Source: Chloroflexota bacterium
Lineage (GTDB): Bacteria > Chloroflexota > UBA11872
Assembly: GCA_022824865.1 (NCBI GenBank)
Contig: JAJDZD010000072.1
Span: forward strand, 196,848 to 260,847
Length of the DNA stretch: 64,000 nucleotides
Direction of reading: 5' to 3'
The position numbers were made by a program, and so were the translations under genes. Below the pieces are notes generated by a model. It saw nothing but the letters and a program-made list of their open reading frames with translations. It was not told where the DNA came from and did no database searches. Shown piece by piece: positions 5,433 through 12,908 of the stretch; positions within the stretch are counted from its first letter, which is position 1; the number at the start of each line of letters is the position of its first letter.

Positions 5433-5479
5433 TGCGGCCTCCAGGGCGTCAATTGGCCGCAGCGTCTTCTGGTGCCCCG

Positions 5480-5507
5480 CCCTGGCAGCCGCGCGCGGCT
5501 GTCAGGG
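5480..5507. terminator. 12-bp inverted repeat, possible terminator of the ABC exporter operon
   Basis: CCCTGG-CAGCCG and its complement (one G-U pair) flank a CGCG loop. The repeat sits between the last exporter permease gene (stop at 5576) and the methyltransferase start (5432), where a terminator would be expected. No T-tract follows on the minus strand, so intrinsic termination would be weak, and a role as a protein-binding palindrome is equally possible. Confidence 0.45.
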
Positions 5508-5575
5508 GGACATCCTACGAAGTCAGACGGCTTGTGTGGAGTCGAGCAAGGGCAATCACCCACGCAGTCGGTGGT

Positions 5576-6406
5576 CTAGGCGTGTAGGCCCACCAGCCCG
5601 CGTTGGATGGCAATACGCTCACATCGGGCGTAGGCCCATGCGCCACCGGCAACACTTGCGAGCGCGATGGCGCCGACGATCGAGAACTCGATTTCAATTG
5701 CAAGTAGCGGCGGAGTTCCGATGGTCGTCGCGCGCAGGAGGTCGATGACGTAGGTGTACGGATTGACGTAGGAAATCCAGCGCACGCTCCAAGGAAGGAT
5801 GGCAATTGGATAGCTGCTGCCGGCCATGACCATGGCCAGCGCGCTGAGGGCACTGGGCAACTGCGCTCCCCTTGCGACAAGCCCAAGGCCAGCGAATCCA
5901 AGACCCATGCCGAAGAATGCGACCAAAGTAATGAGCACTGCGGCGATCGCCGAGACTGAGAAGGCGAAGCCGTGGGCCCGAAACAGCGTGCTGGCAAACA
6001 GGAGCACAAGCAGGCTCTGGAACAGCGCGAAGCCAACGTTGACAATCGTGGCACCGACCAAGGCGGTCCAACGGGGAGCTTCGGCTACCCAGACGTGCGC
6101 AAGCGTGCCGGTCAGGTTGGATCGCCGGAGGAACTCGACCCCGCGCCACAGGGCACCCACGGCAACGTTGAGCGCCACGTAGCCAGTGACGGCATAGGCC
6201 AGAAAACTCTGGCCACCGCCGCTGGCCTCGAACCCAGCGTCGCCGAAGGCCGCGCCAGCGAGCGCGAGGGGCACGAAGAACAGAAACGCCCAACCGATCT
6301 GATAGAGCCACATGGCTTTGAAGCGCGCGGTTTCCATCCACTCGGCGCGCGCATGCGTGAGGCTGGCTCTCAGGAGATTGGCAGCTTCAGAACCGAGTCC
6401 AGCCAT
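5576..6406 (-). CDS. ABC-2 type transporter permease, second copy (B2)
   Basis: 276-aa membrane protein with about six hydrophobic segments, of the ABC-2/NodJ-like export permease type. It contains PYTYVIDLLRATTIGTPP near the C-terminus, in the usual position of the family's late conserved loop. It is a close paralogue of the gene at 7618-8448: both share GWAFLFFVPLAL, ILPWSVRWISYVNPYTYV and end in QRGLVGLHA. ATG 6406 directly follows the TAG stop of the preceding permease, so the two are coupled. It presumably pairs with the 6407-7267 product and borrows the ATPase encoded at 9284-10321. The exported substrate is unknown; drug, lipid or glycan are all possible. Confidence 0.85.
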   Translation of the reverse strand: MAGLGSEAANLLRASLTHARAEWMETARFKAMWLYQIGWAFLFFVPLALAGAAFGDAGFEASGGGQSFLAYAVTGYVALNVAVGALWRGVEFLRRSNLTGTLAHVWVAEAPRWTALVGATIVNVGFALFQSLLVLLFASTLFRAHGFAFSVSAIAAVLITLVAFFGMGLGFAGLGLVARGAQLPSALSALAMVMAGSSYPIAILPWSVRWISYVNPYTYVIDLLRATTIGTPPLLAIEIEFSIVGAIALASVAGGAWAYARCERIAIQRGLVGLHA

Positions 6407-7267
6407 CTACATCCACTCCAGCTCGCCTTTTGCACGCGCGGCCCTATCCATGACGTGCAGCATCACCAACCCGACGACGCCATAAGTCAATGCCATCGCG
6501 AAAAGCACGGCGCATGAGAGCGTGGCGTCCCGCAGGTCGCTGAATACGAGCGCGCTTCGAAGACCGCGGATCATCCAGGTTGGAGGCAGGAGTGCTGAGA
6601 GCCACTGGGCCCAACCCGGAAGCACGGTTACGGGGTAGGCAATGCCGGCCAAGATGCCGGCCACCATCACGAACAACTGCACAAAGAGATAACCCTCGCG
6701 GTATCTGAGCAGGATGGCCGCCCAGGGCAAGGCAATGGCAATGGTCGCCATCCCGCTGCAGACAAGCACGGCCAGTGCAGGGCCCAGGTTGGGCTCGAGT
6801 GGGAAGCGAAACAGTGCCCAGGCAAGGCTGAACGCCCCAACCGCCATGACGGACGGTGAAAACGTGCGCCCGATCGCTCCGCCAGCGATCAGAACGAAGC
6901 GCGTCGTCGTCGTTGCCCAAATGGTGGGCAGGGTTCCCAGGCTCCTGTCGAAACGGAGGTTGTTGGCGAGTTCCGCCGTGACCCAGCCGGTCCATAGAAA
7001 CGTCGTAGCGCCGATAACCGAATAGGCAAGGTATGCGTCTGTCCCGGACAGACGTGCAAAGTTCTTGAGGCCCGAGTTGTCGGGTCCGGCAAGAGCGATG
7101 GTTGCGAGCACAATTGGCAGGACCCACTGCAACATTCCAATCAGGCTTGCAGTCATAAAGAAGGGGTGGCGTCGGTCGGTCCGCCAGCCCTTGCGCGCGA
7201 GCGCGAGAAAGGCCCAGAACTCGCCACGAATCTGCTCGGCGCGAGCGTTCGCCGGAGAGCCGATCAA
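6407..7267 (-). CDS. ABC-2 type transporter permease, second copy (A2)
   Basis: Membrane permease of 286 aa with six predicted hydrophobic spans. It is paralogous to the gene at 8449-9294: both carry QIRGEFWAFLALARKGW near the N-terminus, a nearly identical VLPIVLATIALAGP segment, and end in AKGELEWM. The start is TTG at 7267; no ATG or GTG is available in frame nearby. The DNA around and upstream of this start still encodes, in another frame, a decayed C-terminus of an ATPase (7245-7343). This shows that the gene was copied together with the end of its ATPase gene. Confidence 0.83.
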   Translation of the reverse strand: MIGSPANARAEQIRGEFWAFLALARKGWRTDRRHPFFMTASLIGMLQWVLPIVLATIALAGPDNSGLKNFARLSGTDAYLAYSVIGATTFLWTGWVTAELANNLRFDRSLGTLPTIWATTTTRFVLIAGGAIGRTFSPSVMAVGAFSLAWALFRFPLEPNLGPALAVLVCSGMATIAIALPWAAILLRYREGYLFVQLFVMVAGILAGIAYPVTVLPGWAQWLSALLPPTWMIRGLRSALVFSDLRDATLSCAVLFAMALTYGVVGLVMLHVMDRAARAKGELEWM

Positions 7268-7343
7268 TCCGCGATTCCGCGATGGCTGAGTGGACGTCCC
7301 TGAGGTTGGTTCCGCGGATCCAGATTCCAGTAACCACGATGCC
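7245..7343 (-). pseudogene. Decayed 3' end of an ABC ATPase gene (duplication scar)
   Basis: Reading the minus strand from 7343 gives 33 codons that align without gaps to the last 33 residues of the intact ATPase at 9284-10321. By eye, 15 of 33 are identical: both begin GIVV and both keep the spacing ...AI..SRI.R...ER. The intact gene's stop codon position is TCG here, and a TGA lies just upstream in the same frame, so the remnant cannot make protein. The 3' end of the remnant overlaps the start of permease A2, as in the intact copy. The rest of the 7268-7617 gap (about 270 bp) shows nothing I can recognise. Confidence 0.7.
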
Positions 7344-7617
7344 TCAGTCGCCGATTCGGCGGTAGAGCGCGCAGATCTCCCCTGACCGAGCGCACGAATA
7401 CGCGTGCGGGTGCAAAGTGCGGCATGGCGATTGGATATGAGGTCAGGTGTGGTGTGTCGCGCTAAACCAGAGTCTGTTGGCCACGTAGGTTAGCGGCCTC
7501 AGCGCACGTCAGCTCGAACTCCAGGCTCCATCGTGCCTACTGGCCGAAGCATTGAAGCCTTTCGTCGGTGCGACTCGAGGCGGACGCTGGGGCGTTGGTC
7601 AACGAGATTCATGAGGT

Positions 7618-8448
7618 CTAAGCATGCAGGCCAACAAGCCCTCGCTGAACTGCTATGCGCTCACAAATGGCAAGGATCCGGCTGCCGCCGAAGACGCAAG
7701 CGATTGCGATGGCGCTCACGATCAGGAATTCGAGCTCGATCGCGAGCAGGGGAGGCGTGCCAATGGTCGTTGAGCGCACGAGGTCAACGACGTAGGTGTA
7801 GGGATTGACGTAGCTGATCCAGCGCACGCTCCAGGGGAGGATGGCGATCGGGTAGGTGCCGCCCGCCATGACCATGGCGAGTGCGCCGAGCATCTCGGGA
7901 AAGCGTGCCTGGCGGGCCACCAGGCCGACACCCGCCAGTGCGAGGCCAAGGCCCCAGAAGGCAACCAAGGCGATCAGTAGGGCCAGGATCGTCGGTAGGG
8001 TGATAGCAAACGTCGCGCCCTCAAAGAGCGCGCTGGCAATCATCAGGATCAGAAGCCCCCGGAGCGCTGCAATGCCAACGTCGACGACCGTGGCGCCGGT
8101 CAGCGCTGTCCAGCGGGGCGCCTCGGCCGCCCATAGATGCGCGAGCGTTCCGGTCTGGTTGGACTTCTCCAGGAACACAACGCCGCGCCACAAGGCGGCC
8201 GTCGCGACGTTGAGTGCAACAAACCCCGTGACTGCAAAGGCCAGGAAGCTCCGGCCGCCTCCACTGGCTTCGAAGCCGGCATCGCCGAAGGCCATACCGG
8301 TAAGAGCCAAGGGTACGAAGAAGAGAAACGCCCAGCCAGCCTCATACACCCACAGCGCCTTGAAGCGCGAGGTCTCCAGCCATTGGGCACGCGCATGGGC
8401 GAGGATGGCCTTTGCCGCCCACATCGCCTCAACGCCGACGCGTGTCAC
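7618..8448 (-). CDS. ABC-2 type transporter permease, first copy (B1)
   Basis: 276-aa integral membrane permease with about six hydrophobic segments. Conserved late region: ILPWSVRWISYVNPYTYV and STTIGTPPLLA. It is the paralogue of 5576-6406 and differs from it mainly in loops and in the first 25 residues. The gene directly abuts permease A1 (stop of A1 at 8449, ATG at 8448). With A1 and the ATPase it makes a complete three-gene exporter. In ABC-2 systems two permease chains pair with an ATPase dimer, so A1 and B1 probably form the heterodimeric pore. Confidence 0.86.
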   Translation of the reverse strand: MTRVGVEAMWAAKAILAHARAQWLETSRFKALWVYEAGWAFLFFVPLALTGMAFGDAGFEASGGGRSFLAFAVTGFVALNVATAALWRGVVFLEKSNQTGTLAHLWAAEAPRWTALTGATVVDVGIAALRGLLILMIASALFEGATFAITLPTILALLIALVAFWGLGLALAGVGLVARQARFPEMLGALAMVMAGGTYPIAILPWSVRWISYVNPYTYVVDLVRSTTIGTPPLLAIELEFLIVSAIAIACVFGGSRILAICERIAVQRGLVGLHA

Positions 8449-9294
8449 TTACATCCACTCCAGTTCACCTTTGGCGCGAGCCGCCGAATCCATGACTTTC
8501 AGCAGGACGAGTCCGGCAGCTCCGTACACGAGGGCCAACGCCAGCAGCACGCCACACGAGCGCATGGCGTCCGGGATGTCGTTGAAAATCAGCGCCGCGC
8601 GCAGCCCCTGGATCAGCCAGGTGGGCGCCAGGAGCCTGGACAGCCACTGTGCCCAATCCGGAAGCAGGTCAACCGGATAGGCGATGCCGGCAAGGATTCC
8701 GGTTCCCACCACGAACAGCGAAACGAGGTAGTGCGCCTCGCGGTATCTGAGGGTGACGGCCGCCAGCGGAAGCGCGAGCCCAATCATCGCCAGTCCGCCG
8801 CACACCAGAACGCCCAGTGCTGGGCCAATGTTGGGCGCCAGCGGGAACCTGAAGAGCGCCCAGGCAATGCCGAACGCCGCTGCGGCCATGGCAGCCGGAG
8901 CCACGGTGCGTCCCAGCGCTCCACCGCACGTCAGTACCGCACGTGTCGCAGCCGATGTCCAGAGGGTCGGCAGCGTGCCTAGGGTTCTGTCGAGACGCAG
9001 ATTGAAGGAAAGCGCGGAAAGCATCCAACCGGCCCAAAGAAAGGCGATTGCGCCGATGACCGAGTAGGCGAGGTAGGCATCGGTGCCAGTGGCATCCACA
9101 AACTGCCGAAGTCCCGCATCGCCTGGTCCCGCCAGGGCGATCGTGGCAAGCACAATTGGCAGCACCCATTGAAACGTTCCAATCAGGCCGGACGTCATGA
9201 AGAACGGTTGACGCCGGTCGATTTTCCAGCCCTTCCGAGCGAGTGCGAGAAAGGCCCAGAACTCGCCGCGTATCTGCGCGACACTAGCGTTCAA
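8449..9294 (-). CDS. ABC-2 type transporter permease, first copy (A1)
   Basis: Membrane permease with six hydrophobic spans, paralogous to A2 (6407-7267). I prefer the TTG start at 9294 (11-bp overlap with the ATPase gene), because the paralogue begins at about the same place relative to QIRGEFWAFLALARKGW. A longer reading from 9375 adds 27 Ser/Pro/Thr-rich residues and overlaps the ATPase by 92 bp; it cannot be excluded. The gene is probably co-translated with the ATPase upstream and permease B1 downstream. Confidence 0.83.
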   Translation of the reverse strand: MNASVAQIRGEFWAFLALARKGWKIDRRQPFFMTSGLIGTFQWVLPIVLATIALAGPGDAGLRQFVDATGTDAYLAYSVIGAIAFLWAGWMLSALSFNLRLDRTLGTLPTLWTSAATRAVLTCGGALGRTVAPAAMAAAAFGIAWALFRFPLAPNIGPALGVLVCGGLAMIGLALPLAAVTLRYREAHYLVSLFVVGTGILAGIAYPVDLLPDWAQWLSRLLAPTWLIQGLRAALIFNDIPDAMRSCGVLLALALVYGAAGLVLLKVMDSAARAKGELEWM

Positions 9295-10321
9295 TAAAGG
9301 GCCGCTCGATGCGAGAGCCGGTGATGGCGATGTAGGCGTCTTCGAGGTCGGGCTCGCGGAGGCGGGCTTGCTCAACCACGATGCCCTGGCTGACCAGCGC
9401 GCTGGTCAGGGCCTCGCTGCTGCGCCAGCCCTGCGGCGCGCGAGCGGCGACGGCGAACTCGCGATCCCTGTTGACCTCACCCCACCAGAGGCCATCGGAC
9501 CCGATGACCGCTTTGGCTGTGGCCAGGTCGCCGCGCAGGAGGAGGTCCAGGCGCGGCACTTCGCCGGCCTGCCGGATGAGGTCCGCCGGCCGGCCTTCGG
9601 CAACCAGCGTGCCGCTCTGGATGATTCCGACGCGGTCGCAAATCTGCTCGGCTTCGTAGAGGTTGTGGGTGGTAAGCAGGATGGCGGTGCCCGACTCGGC
9701 AATTTGGCGAATGAGATGGCGCGCTTCGCGGGCGGCGACGGGGTCGAGAGCGGCGGTCGGCTCATCGAGCAGGAGCACCGGCGGCTCGTGCAGGGTGGCG
9801 CGGGCGAGGTTGAGGCGCTGTTTCATGCCGGTGCTGTAGGTCTCGACGAGGTCGTCCATTCGATCCTGCAGGCCGAATTGTTGGGAGGCCGCCGTGATTC
9901 GCTCGGCGAGACGCTCCCTGGACATGAATGACAGCGTGCCGAAGAGTTCGAGGTTTTCGCGGCCGGACAGCCGCCAGTACATGCCGCGCTCACCCGCGAA
10001 CAGAACACCGAGGTTGCGGCGCACCTGGCGGGCCGACCGGACGACGTCGAAGCCAGCCACCACGGCGCTGCCCGAGGTGGGTTCCAGCAGAGTGGCGAGC
10101 ATCTTGACGGTGGTGGTTTTGCCCGCGCCATTCGGTCCCAGCAAGCCGAAGCAGTGGCCGGGGGCAATGTCCAGGTTCAGGTCGTTGACGGCGACGATGC
10201 GCGTAGGCTCCGCGGGCTCAGCCCGGAATCGCGGGAGGAGTCCGCGAAAGCCCCGGCGCACCCGAGGTTCGAAGACACGAGTCAGCGACCGTACCGACAC
10301 GGCCGGCAACTGTGAACTCAT
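9284..10321 (-). CDS. ABC transporter ATP-binding protein
   Basis: 345-aa ATPase that powers the adjacent ABC-2 permeases from the cytoplasm. Walker A GPNGAGKTT (about 59-67), a Q-loop region, ABC signature YSTGMKQRLNLAR, Walker B LLLDEPTAALDP and the H-loop LLTTHN are all present, so it should be active. The C-terminal region after residue about 235 is the divergent DrrA/CcmA-type tail. It is the only intact ATPase for four permease genes. It lies 43 bp after the fumarase/aspartase family gene, with a small hairpin (10343-10360) between them, and overlaps the next permease gene. Confidence 0.9.
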   Translation of the reverse strand: MSSQLPAVSVRSLTRVFEPRVRRGFRGLLPRFRAEPAEPTRIVAVNDLNLDIAPGHCFGLLGPNGAGKTTTVKMLATLLEPTSGSAVVAGFDVVRSARQVRRNLGVLFAGERGMYWRLSGRENLELFGTLSFMSRERLAERITAASQQFGLQDRMDDLVETYSTGMKQRLNLARATLHEPPVLLLDEPTAALDPVAAREARHLIRQIAESGTAILLTTHNLYEAEQICDRVGIIQSGTLVAEGRPADLIRQAGEVPRLDLLLRGDLATAKAVIGSDGLWWGEVNRDREFAVAARAPQGWRSSEALTSALVSQGIVVEQARLREPDLEDAYIAITGSRIERPFIER

Positions 10322-10364: not shown

Positions 10365-11777
10365 TTAGCCGCCTCCGCCGCCGCCGGCGCGCACGCCAGG
10401 CTCGGTCATGGGAGCTGGGTCCAGAGCGTCTGCGAGTTCTTGTGCGGACAAGTCAGTCAGGCGGGCCGCCACGACTGGAATGGTCTCTCCGGTAGCTACC
10501 GCCTGCTTGGCGATTTCTGCGGCGGCGGTATAGCCGATCTTGGGGGCCAAGGCCGTGGCCAGCATGGTGTTGCGCTCCAGCCAGTAGCGCAGCATCTCGT
10601 CATCGGTTTCCAGGCCGTCGACGCCCTTGCGCGCAAAGGCCAGTGATCCCGTGGCCAGGATCTCGATCGACTGGCACAGGTTGTGCGCAATCAGGGGCAT
10701 CATCACGTTCAGTTCCAGCTGTCCGGCGGTGACTGCCGAGGCGATGGCCAGATCGTTGCCCTGGACCTGGAAGCAGATCATGTTCAGGCACTCGGCCATG
10801 ACCGGGTTGATCTTGCCGGGCATGATTGAGGATCCGGGCTGCACTGGCGGCATGCGAAGTTCGGAAATGCCGGTGCGCGGTCCTGATCCCAGCAGGCGAA
10901 AGTCGTTGGCGATCCGATTCAGGTCCAGCGCCAACGTTCGCAGAGCGCCGGAGAGTTGGGCAAACCGGCCCATGCTCTGCATCGCGTAGAAGTAGTCGGT
11001 CGACTGCCGAACCCTAAAGCCGGTCAGGTCGGCGATGACCTCTACTACCTGCGATTGATAGGCAGGCTCGGCATTCAGCCCGCTACCGACGGCGGTGCCG
11101 CCGAGGCTGAGTTCAAGGCTGGCGTCGGCAGCTTCGCGAATGGCCTCGGCGTTGCGTCTGACAGCTTCCGCATAGGCGCCGAACTCCTGGCCCAGGCGGA
11201 CTGGTGTGGCGTCCTGCAGGTGGGTACGGCCGGACTTGACGATGCCGTCCCACGCGGTGGCCTTGGCCCGCAGGCTCTCGGCCAGGACGTCGAGGGAGTC
11301 GTAGAGGTCCGGCAGCAGCTGCAGCGCGGCCAGGGCGATGGCTGTAGGGATCACGTCGTTGGTGGATTGCGCCATGTTGACGTGGTCGTTGGGATGAATG
11401 GGGTCGTAGCTGCCGCGCGGCCGACCGAGCAGTTCATTGGCGCGATTAGCCAGTAGCTCGTTGGCATTCATGTTGTGCGATGTGCCGGCGCCGGCCTGAA
11501 AGACGTCCACCACGAACTGGTCGGCGTGTTGCCCGTCCAGCGCCTCGTCGGCGGCGCGCGCGATGGCATCAGCCAGATCGCCATCCAGGCGGCCCGTCTG
11601 CTTGTGCGCCACGGCGGCGGCCTTCTTGATGAGGACGGTGGCCCAGACGAAGGCGTGGTGCGGCGGAAGTCCGCTGATCGGAAAGTTCTCGACCGCGCGC
11701 TGCGTCTGCACACCGTAGAGTGCCGATTCCGGGACTTGCAGTTCGCCCAGTGGGTCTTTCTCGGTTCGCGTTTGCAT
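10365..11777 (-). CDS. Class II fumarate hydratase / aspartate ammonia-lyase family enzyme
   Basis: 470-aa member of the fumarase/aspartase superfamily (homotetrameric, cytosolic), which catalyses reversible elimination to fumarate. The signature GSSIMPGKINPVM carries the catalytic Ser. AGAGTSHNMNANE and HPNDHVNMAQSTND form the other active-site regions. The N-terminus (RTEKDPLGELQVP...YGVQTQRAVENFPIS) and VDVFQAGAGTS look aspartase-like. HNLCQSIEILATG and IGYTAAAEIAKQA look fumarase-like. I therefore do not choose between fumC and aspA. The C-terminus ends in a run of six Gly after VRA, which is unusual. It follows the MidA-like gene by 33 bp on the same strand. Confidence 0.85.
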   Translation of the reverse strand: MQTRTEKDPLGELQVPESALYGVQTQRAVENFPISGLPPHHAFVWATVLIKKAAAVAHKQTGRLDGDLADAIARAADEALDGQHADQFVVDVFQAGAGTSHNMNANELLANRANELLGRPRGSYDPIHPNDHVNMAQSTNDVIPTAIALAALQLLPDLYDSLDVLAESLRAKATAWDGIVKSGRTHLQDATPVRLGQEFGAYAEAVRRNAEAIREAADASLELSLGGTAVGSGLNAEPAYQSQVVEVIADLTGFRVRQSTDYFYAMQSMGRFAQLSGALRTLALDLNRIANDFRLLGSGPRTGISELRMPPVQPGSSIMPGKINPVMAECLNMICFQVQGNDLAIASAVTAGQLELNVMMPLIAHNLCQSIEILATGSLAFARKGVDGLETDDEMLRYWLERNTMLATALAPKIGYTAAAEIAKQAVATGETIPVVAARLTDLSAQELADALDPAPMTEPGVRAGGGGGG

Positions 11778-11810: not shown

Positions 11811-12908
11811 TCAGTCAGTAAGTGCGTCCAGGCCGCGGATCGGGCTCAAGTCAACTCCCTTGCCCTGGGTCAGCACCTGGAATCGACCGAGGTCGGTCGG
11901 TGAGACGAGTTGAAATACGGCTTCGCGTTCGGCTCGATAGGTTGCCAGGGTGGCGTCAGGTCGCTCCTGGAATCGTACGAGGTGATCGCCAGCGCCCAGC
12001 GCGGCCAGGAAGTCTGCCTGTTGGCCCGTTCGGTAGCAGCCGAATCCCTGGGACCGTCCCGCGTCGATCAACTGCGTGAAGTTTACGTGGGCCGTCAGGT
12101 CGGCATGTCCGGGGTTGGCGAGGACATCGTCCGAGGCTCGGTGGCGACGGTAGGCCAACAGGGTGCCGGCAGCCAGGCGCTTCGAATGCACCGCGGCGCT
12201 GATGTCGCCGTAGTCGATGCTGGTCATCACGACGCCTGATGCAAGGCTGGCAGCGTGCCGGTAGATCGACTCGACACTCTGCCGGACCTCGATGCGGCCA
12301 CCGACGGGCGTGGCTGACGCGTACTGCATGGCATAGGACTTAATCTCGTCGGGCGCGGGCCGGTCCACAAACCCCCATTCTTCGCCTTCGCGAGCCACGC
12401 GCTCCTCGACCCAGCCGTCGGCTGTCCTACGGGCCAGGCGTACAGGCAGGGCGTCGAAAAACTCGTTCGAAATGATGGAGGTGGCGTTGCCGACGGGAAC
12501 TTCCGCGATCGAGGCAAAACAAGCGTCAAGCGCATCCGTCGTGCTGGAAGCAGGGGCTCGTTCGACGCCCACGTATTGGAGCGATCCGCCCCAGGAAAAA
12601 CTGTCAGCCGCATTACGAATCTGGCGGGCAAGGCGACCGTCGGCCGCGCCGAGTTCGACGATGCGAAATGGAGCGGGTCGTCCGAGGATTTGCCAGACAT
12701 CGTCCAGATGAGCGGCGAGTAACTGGCCGAACAGCGTGGGATGGACGCTGACGCTGGTGAAGTAGTCCGCGTAGGGCGCGTCGGCGCGTGTGTAGAAGCC
12801 ACCGGATGGGTCGTAGAGCGCATGTTCCATGAACACACTGAATGGCAGAGAGCCCTGGCGGTTGGCTTGCTCCTGAAGCCGTTTGGACACGGTGTTCGCG
12901 GACGTCAC
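11811..12908 (-). CDS. MidA/NDUFAF7 family SAM-dependent methyltransferase
   Basis: 365-aa protein of the DUF185 (COG1565) family. It opens with a region containing MEHALYDPSGGFYTR, followed by FTSVSVHPTLFG and the SAM-binding motif VELGAADGRLARQI. In mitochondria the homologue NDUFAF7 methylates an arginine of complex I subunit NDUFS2; bacterial targets are mostly unknown. FEVATS-type post-motifs are replaced by IISNEFFDALPV, which is usual for this family. The chosen start (12908) gives the normal family length. It sits upstream of the fumarase/aspartase gene on the same strand, with 33 bp between. Confidence 0.85.
   Translation of the reverse strand: MTSANTVSKRLQEQANRQGSLPFSVFMEHALYDPSGGFYTRADAPYADYFTSVSVHPTLFGQLLAAHLDDVWQILGRPAPFRIVELGAADGRLARQIRNAADSFSWGGSLQYVGVERAPASSTTDALDACFASIAEVPVGNATSIISNEFFDALPVRLARRTADGWVEERVAREGEEWGFVDRPAPDEIKSYAMQYASATPVGGRIEVRQSVESIYRHAASLASGVVMTSIDYGDISAAVHSKRLAAGTLLAYRRHRASDDVLANPGHADLTAHVNFTQLIDAGRSQGFGCYRTGQQADFLAALGAGDHLVRFQERPDATLATYRAEREAVFQLVSPTDLGRFQVLTQGKGVDLSPIRGLDALTD

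Follow-up and report, generated by a model that had tools for sequence, protein, structure and literature searches.

The exporter locus

The stretch of DNA analysed here, referred to as the window, comprises 64 000 nucleotides (nt) from the genome of a Chloroflexota bacterium (lineage UBA11872; assembly GCA_022824865.1, contig JAJDZD010000072.1), and carries on its minus strand an ATP-binding cassette (ABC) exporter locus in which one intact ATPase gene is followed by two pairs of permease genes. In the order of transcription these are the ATPase, A1, B1, a 350-nt spacer, A2 and B2. The ATPase (9284-10321; 345 amino acids) is a DrrA-like nucleotide-binding domain (NBD) protein with a C-terminal extension, scoring 104.9 bits against PF00005, and its stop codon is overlapped by the TTG start of A1 (8449-9294; 281 amino acids), which agrees better with relatives than the start of the longest A1 reading frame at 9375. 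B1 (7618-8448; 276 amino acids), the spacer (7268-7617), A2 (6407-7267; 286 amino acids) and B2 (5576-6406; 276 amino acids) follow. All five reading frames are open at these coordinates, which had been given beforehand. The ABC_tran domain of the ATPase and the ABC2_membrane domain (PF01061) of all four permeases (A1 49.5, B1 42.2, A2 44.9 and B2 41.5 bits) pass the Pfam gathering score, and by this combination the locus is a type V, or ABC-2, exporter.

The two pairs are paralogous in the same order. A1 and A2 share 191 of 280 residues (68%, E 5e-133) and B1 and B2 share 193 of 276 (70%, E 2e-138), whereas A1 and B1 are just 28% identical, so that the matching of A with A and B with B is correct. 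At the DNA level the two units resemble each other at a single offset of 2042 nt, which holds without gaps between positions of about 5573 and 7343. The similarity reaches past the start of A2 and takes in what is left of an ATPase 3' end, described below. The initial annotation had pointed to paralogous pairs served by one intact ATPase, with both copies open and sharing identical stretches, and the alignments, the common register and the open frames bear this out. All 17 aligned pairs of the genus carry the shared block ILPWSVRWISYVNPYTYV in identical or almost identical form, which indicates constraint more than recent copying. Recent gene conversion between B1 and B2 was considered and rejected: fourfold degenerate sites are identical at 8 of 11 positions in codons 201-225, the ILPWSVRW block, and at 1 of 10 in codons 151-175, and as this block is kept throughout the genus, local conversion could have occurred there but is not required.

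Distribution and permease types

The search for this arrangement in relatives that had been suggested with the initial annotation covered 13 genomes of the genus, all of them metagenome-assembled genomes (MAGs). The locus occurs in 11, with two pairs in five (G000, the genome of the window, and G001, G005, G006 and G010) and one pair in six (G004, G007, G008, G009, G011 and G012). It lies between fumarase and methyltransferase genes in 10 of the 11, the remaining case, G007, being a 3.8-kb contig on which only ATPase, A, B and methyltransferase are visible. The rpoB tree, built without G003 (no rpoB match) and with states assigned to 11 genomes, G002 not among them, implies at least three changes between the tandem and single states and at least six in last-pair type, and tandem loci fall in both main clades. 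In a wider search, which covered 61 genomes and also the matches listed from 301 genomes of the phylum, only members of this genus show two B-type matches spaced by about 2 kb.

Trees built from A, from B and from the two combined sort the 17 pairs into about five types, for which Greek names are coined here. Alpha comprises the first pairs of G000, G001, G005 and G006, and hence A1 and B1 of the window; alpha-prime, the single pairs of G004, G007, G008, G009 and G011; beta, the second pairs of G000 (A2 and B2), G001 and G005 together with the pair in a second complete operon of G005; gamma, the second pairs of G006 and G010 and the single pair of G012; and delta, the first pair of G010. The A gene of the second G005 operon is unplaced in the A tree, but its product shares 77-79% identity with the A proteins of beta and no more than 67% with any other.

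Judged by substitution ratios, A2 and B2 are under purifying selection. The ratio of nonsynonymous to synonymous divergence (dN/dS) between orthologues, an estimate proposed at the outset together with the pairwise alignments, is 0.178 for A2 and 0.077 for B2 between G000 and G001, and 0.136 and 0.096 between G000 and G005, an overall range of 0.08-0.18. The same two comparisons give 0.119/0.080 and 0.158/0.121 for A1/B1, and 0.10/0.09 for the ATPase. The A and B genes checked contain no internal stops, and decay of A2 and B2, which would have spoken against the initial annotation, is not seen. Values of dN near 2 in some rows for the glycosyltransferase (GT) and WZY genes coincide with stops in mis-set 5' ends and were unused.

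One ATPase for two permease pairs

The ATPase is nearly constant across the genus, with 85-97% pairwise identity among 12 copies (including that of the second G005 operon) and 88-97% identity to the window copy. G000, G001, G006 and G010 each have one such ATPase (94-100% identical to the window copy) for two pairs, the next best match being 54-58% identical. G005 has two close ATPases for three pairs, as its contig C72 (L049) bears a second complete ATPase-A-B operon outside the conserved locus, with a beta-type pair and an ATPase 91% identical to that of the window. A dedicated second ATPase was sought in the genome of the window and in the genus, and was found in G005 only.

In the genome of the window, 55 ATPase matches have E values of 1e-10 or lower. 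The next-best two, on contigs C63 and C70, are paralogues of 55% identity, each with its own A and B. All 13 best matches adjoin an ABC-2-like permease; one of these permeases (C63:54324) fails to reach the Pfam cut-off, and for C36, C68 and C12 the assignment was made by eye on the membrane-protein reading frames next to the ATPase. A C70-type paralogue in G004 (G004:C17:19068-21666) looks broken, with a TGA within the ATPase match and the B homologue in two pieces.

An intact ATPase of the family stands directly before the alpha-prime pairs of five genomes, the gamma pair of G012 and the beta pair on C72 of G005, and those before the single beta and gamma pairs are 91-92% identical to the window copy. 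As each of the beta, gamma and alpha-prime types is found as a sole pair behind such an ATPase, the ATPase is probably compatible with all three. From this we infer that both pairs would be served simultaneously in one cell by the single ATPase.

An eroded ATPase remnant before A2

The spacer between B1 and A2 is homologous in the five tandem loci by pairwise DNA matches. That of the window is 80% identical to G001 over 350 nt and 77% to G006 over 314 nt, with local matches to G010. The G005 spacer is the most diverged, matching G010 (66% over 247 nt) and G006 (72% over 95 nt) and giving no match to G000 or G001 at E 1e-3. In all five loci the 105 nt before A2 (7268-7372 in the window), anchored by the A2 frame, align with the 3' end of the functional ATPase, with zero the best shift in five of five. 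They read as an eroded, in-register remnant of about 35 codons with one in-frame stop in the window and an uncertain upstream edge. Identities out of 105 are 64 in G000, 63 in G001, 52 in G005, 55 in G006 and 61 in G010, with null means of 37-38.5; the value of 64 is against the functional tail of G007, has a null mean of 38.5 and is reached by 0.15% of null draws. The shares of draws reaching the observed value (G000 0.0015, G001 0.0005, G005 0, G006 0, G010 0.0025) are somewhat too small, since the observation was taken over 12 genomes and 31 shifts and each draw over one place and 31 shifts; the null was sampled from the same loci, so that the stub itself can be drawn (105 of 105 in G000). 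The G010 remnant reads GIGIAKVKLLGTDLEDARMEIAESP, which parallels GIVVEEARLREPDLEDAYIAITGSR of the functional G007 gene.

Alignments with free position are weak. The window spacer against ATPase tails scored 24, below the shuffle maximum of 29, and in a second such alignment G000, G001 and G005 lay above the shuffle maximum and G006 and G010 below it, with a null that used 3 of 12 tails and so favoured the observation. The remnant is thus argued from the register-anchored test. It follows that the second pair formerly stood behind an ATPase of its own, of which the stub is what is left.

Exchange of pairs between species

The pairs appear to transfer between species as A+B units over an ATPase that hardly changes. 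The sister species G001 and G006 (rpoB 98% identical) have second pairs only 62% (A2) and 72% (B2) identical, with synonymous divergence (dS) of 1.25/0.84 for A2/B2, 0.11/0.11 for A1/B1 and 0.04 for the downstream methyltransferase (MT), and here beta and gamma substitute for each other. Likewise dS between G009 and G012 (rpoB 96%) is 1.20/1.07 for A/B, compared with 0.30 for the ATPase and 0.16 for MT, while between G000 and G010 the values are 0.18 for the ATPase and 1.04/0.95 for A1/B1. Over the 17 pairs, A and B distances correlate at 0.94, A and ATPase distances at -0.14, and B and ATPase distances at -0.13. In 10 genomes, correlation with rpoB distances is -0.14 for the last B and 0.88 for MT, with Wzy following partly (0.41) and the ATPase weakly (0.30); the last B and the ATPase correlate at 0.01.

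In comparisons between types, the final 52 codons of the last B gene, B2 in the window, track position rather than type. Identity of this tail minus that of the body is +0.083 in 39 last/last and -0.067 in 55 first/last comparisons, and 13 further comparisons with G005x gave +0.061 (eight last/last) and -0.098 (five first/last), four first/first comparisons giving -0.113. This suggests that one crossover edge lies within the 3' end of B.

Approximately unbiased (AU) tests, whose groups were named after earlier trees had been viewed, making the p values too sharp, reject the five second-position pairs as a clade (p 9e-46), alpha plus delta, the first-position pairs of tandem loci, as a clade (p 0.0015) and the two G010 pairs as sisters (p 1e-90). 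All beta and gamma pairs as one clade are not rejected (p 0.34), so that an ancient duplication followed by exchange could also account for the trees.

The C63-type operon, present in 10 genomes, served as a control, and shows weak correlations of ATPase with A (0.48, p 0.05) and with B (0.45, p 0.10). Its mean permease distances are 0.14 for A and 0.09 for B, and those at the present locus, averaged over 17 pairs with the two pairs of a tandem genome both counted, 0.31 and 0.28. By these sequence distances, what is distinctive here is deep permease divergence above an almost constant ATPase.

Genomic context

Upstream of the ATPase lie a fumarase-type lyase gene (10365-11777) and a PF02636 methyltransferase gene (11811-12908). 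Downstream of B2 are MT, a WcaI-like glycosyltransferase, a sugar epimerase/dehydratase (EPI) and a protein with a Wzy/O-antigen ligase domain, and past the window edge there are further glycan genes (GT2, a PF02397 sugar transferase, DUF4012 and a TMEM260-like protein). The gap between B2 and MT (5433-5575) contains a near-perfect palindrome around GCCGCGCGCGGC, with its core at 5488-5499, which is conserved in 10 aligned genomes, the G010 core having one substitution and G005 being omitted for its long gap; it is possibly an operator or the start region of the glycan genes. The B-to-MT distance is nearly 2 kb in G005 (L041:10854-12819) and 138-478 nt in the ten others, and in G012 (L048) a 32-nt stretch of the 478-nt gap has matches at five sites on the downstream side of the exporter of G017, a member of another genus.

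A probable shared motor with two translocation units

We regard it as probable that the locus encodes a type V (ABC-2) exporter in which a single motor serves two alternative translocation units, and whose origin and pair swapping would be as follows. Each pair would form its own A-B heterodimer on a homodimer of the common ATPase, giving A1B1-ATPase2 and A2B2-ATPase2 complexes that draw on one ATPase pool; that one ATPase drives two separate heterodimers is the most likely arrangement. The tandem would have arisen when a second ATPase-A-B unit, obtained from a relative or anciently duplicated, was placed beside the first, and with two nearly identical ATPases the second would have been redundant and eroded to the stub. 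Thereafter pairs would be replaced or removed by recombination, both within the 3' end of the last B gene and in the tail of the ATPase or the spacer. The two pairs are probably for related but different envelope lipids, glycolipids or amphiphiles, although this is a guess. More tentatively, and as a possibility rather than an expectation, the locus could be a modular exporter in which the conserved ATPase is a fixed motor and the divergent pairs are cassettes traded by recombination, tandem species holding two alleles and with them a wider export range. Of the reading first put forward, the sharing of one ATPase by two pairs stands on genome comparison, while plain local duplication gives way to pairs that seem to have been exchanged between species.

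Several observations weigh against this account. Between G001 and G006 the upstream genes are far apart too (dS 0.92 for SAM, 0.59 for FUM and 0.38 for the ATPase), so that recombination is not restricted to the permeases, and a tree of six flanking genes disagrees with rpoB. The C63-type permeases are decoupled from rpoB in the same way (A 0.09, B 0.03), so that recombination is general in the genus, and the correlation between A and B may be due to physical linkage alone. A2 and B2 have lost translational overlap with an intact ATPase and a scan of the locus recognised no promoters (its two terminator-like sites being not above chance), which weakens the case for their expression. Conservation between types is not better in the presumed NBD-coupling loop than elsewhere (A 0.63 against 0.63, B 0.69 against 0.66), and the idea of a conserved NBD docking loop below a diverged pore is thereby unsupported; with segment borders set by hand from predicted helices, conservation is highest in the two C-terminal tails (0.84 and 0.87) and, for B, also in an extracellular segment (0.90) and the re-entrant segment (0.82). 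Finally, the genus genomes are MAGs, that of the window being 91.9% complete.

This incompleteness, the 55 ATPase matches in the same genome and the second close ATPase of G005, which has its own beta-type pair elsewhere, are what could be said for an unlinked ATPase powering A2B2. No second ATPase above 58% identity to that of the window was found in G000, G001, G006 or G010, and the 13 best-matching ATPases of the window genome each have an adjoining ABC-2-like permease (sharing would still be permitted), so that such a hidden dedicated ATPase, sought as a refutation of the initial annotation and not found in its own MAG, is decidedly unlikely. Mixing of subunits, as A1 with B2, A2 with B1 or the four-subunit heterotetramer that the annotation had offered, can be imagined from the 68-70% likeness of the pairs, and is very unlikely: in none of the 17 pairs do A and B belong to different types (taking the A of the second G005 operon as beta by identity), A and B distances run together, and the stoichiometry proposed for DrrABC is DrrBC-A2 (PMC11539658), from which, by analogy, A and B would be a heterodimeric porter on an ATPase homodimer.

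That the second pair lacks a separate function, the tandem being a transient product of recombination, would suit its repeated gain or loss on the rpoB tree and the six of 11 genomes that manage with one pair. We hold it to be quite unlikely, since a homologous spacer and stub persist in five genomes of both main clades and the stub is much decayed, yet A2 and B2 have no stop and the low dN/dS ratios given above. An in-situ tandem duplication in the ancestor of the genus, with vertical divergence of A1B1 and A2B2 thereafter, is unlikely but would explain the shared spacer and the acceptable clade of beta and gamma; the other three AU tests reject what it predicts, with p values that are too sharp, and sister species have beta in place of gamma, so at least exchange must be added to any duplication model.

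If the modular reading is correct, this would be a multitask ATPase of ABC-2 exporters, whose natural sets of partners could reveal how one NBD accepts permeases about 54-79% alike. The genus offers a natural experiment: a near-constant ATPase has about five types of permease pair as neighbours, singly or in tandem, and the requirements for NBD recognition in permeases thereby become accessible to simple co-expression tests. A further suggestion is that in these uncultured Chloroflexi the specificity of exporters may evolve via cassette exchange.

Comparison with known systems

Models of A1 and B1 (pLDDT 73, moderate confidence) have the predicted type V fold, with ABCG25 the best Foldseek match for A (E 3e-4), Wzm for B (E 5e-4) and KpsM high in both. 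The likeness to the polysaccharide exporters Wzm-Wzt, KpsMT and TarGH would thus be one of fold; identity among the matches listed is 11-19%, and the two permeases differ here. In capsule and O-antigen loci, inner genes are swapped by recombination between conserved flanks, whereas here the permease pair is swapped and the ATPase retained. Export of the neighbouring glycan is unsupported, as in 10 genomes last-B distances do not track those of the neighbouring genes (Wzy 0.06, GT -0.08, EPI 0.10, MT -0.07).

The best NCBIfam matches are drrA and drrB, below their cut-offs: the ATPase scores 258.7 bits against TIGR01188 (cut-off 312.45) and the permeases 34-58 bits against TIGR01247 (cut-off 223.05). 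DrrABC, the phthiocerol dimycocerosate (PDIM) exporter of Mycobacterium tuberculosis and M. bovis BCG, is described as a type V system with a C-terminally extended ATPase and two related permeases (PMC11539658, PMC7761784), and resembles the present locus in this, in the 29% identity of DrrB and DrrC (28% for A1 and B1) and in the order of ATPase then two permeases, as in the single-pair loci of the genus. It differs in that two permease pairs stand behind one ATPase here, at scores under the family cut-offs. Mycobacterial PDIM export requires DrrABC and MmpL7 (PMC11539658). The paralogous ATPase-A-B operon on C63 (L050:5512-11938; ATPase 55% identical) is followed by MMPL-family and MpaB-like genes, which by analogy hints at a lipid substrate for that paralogue, not for the locus discussed here.

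In a literature search with narrow terms, covering few subscription papers, no case of two permease pairs with a single ATPase was found among ABC-2 exporters. Sharing of an ATPase is documented for sugar importers (PMC7658222), and the multitask ATPases of type I importers, MsmX (PMC7658222) and MsmK (PMC4519317), are the closest parallel, one NBD energising several permease pairs and being exchangeable between species. By gene count, four of the five tandem genomes have one ATPase for at least two pairs. The permeases are of the ABC-2 kind, not those of a type I sugar importer; MsmX and MsmK belong to carbohydrate importers in which sharing was tested by complementation, whereas in the present ABC-2 exporters it is the comparison of genomes that points to a shared motor.

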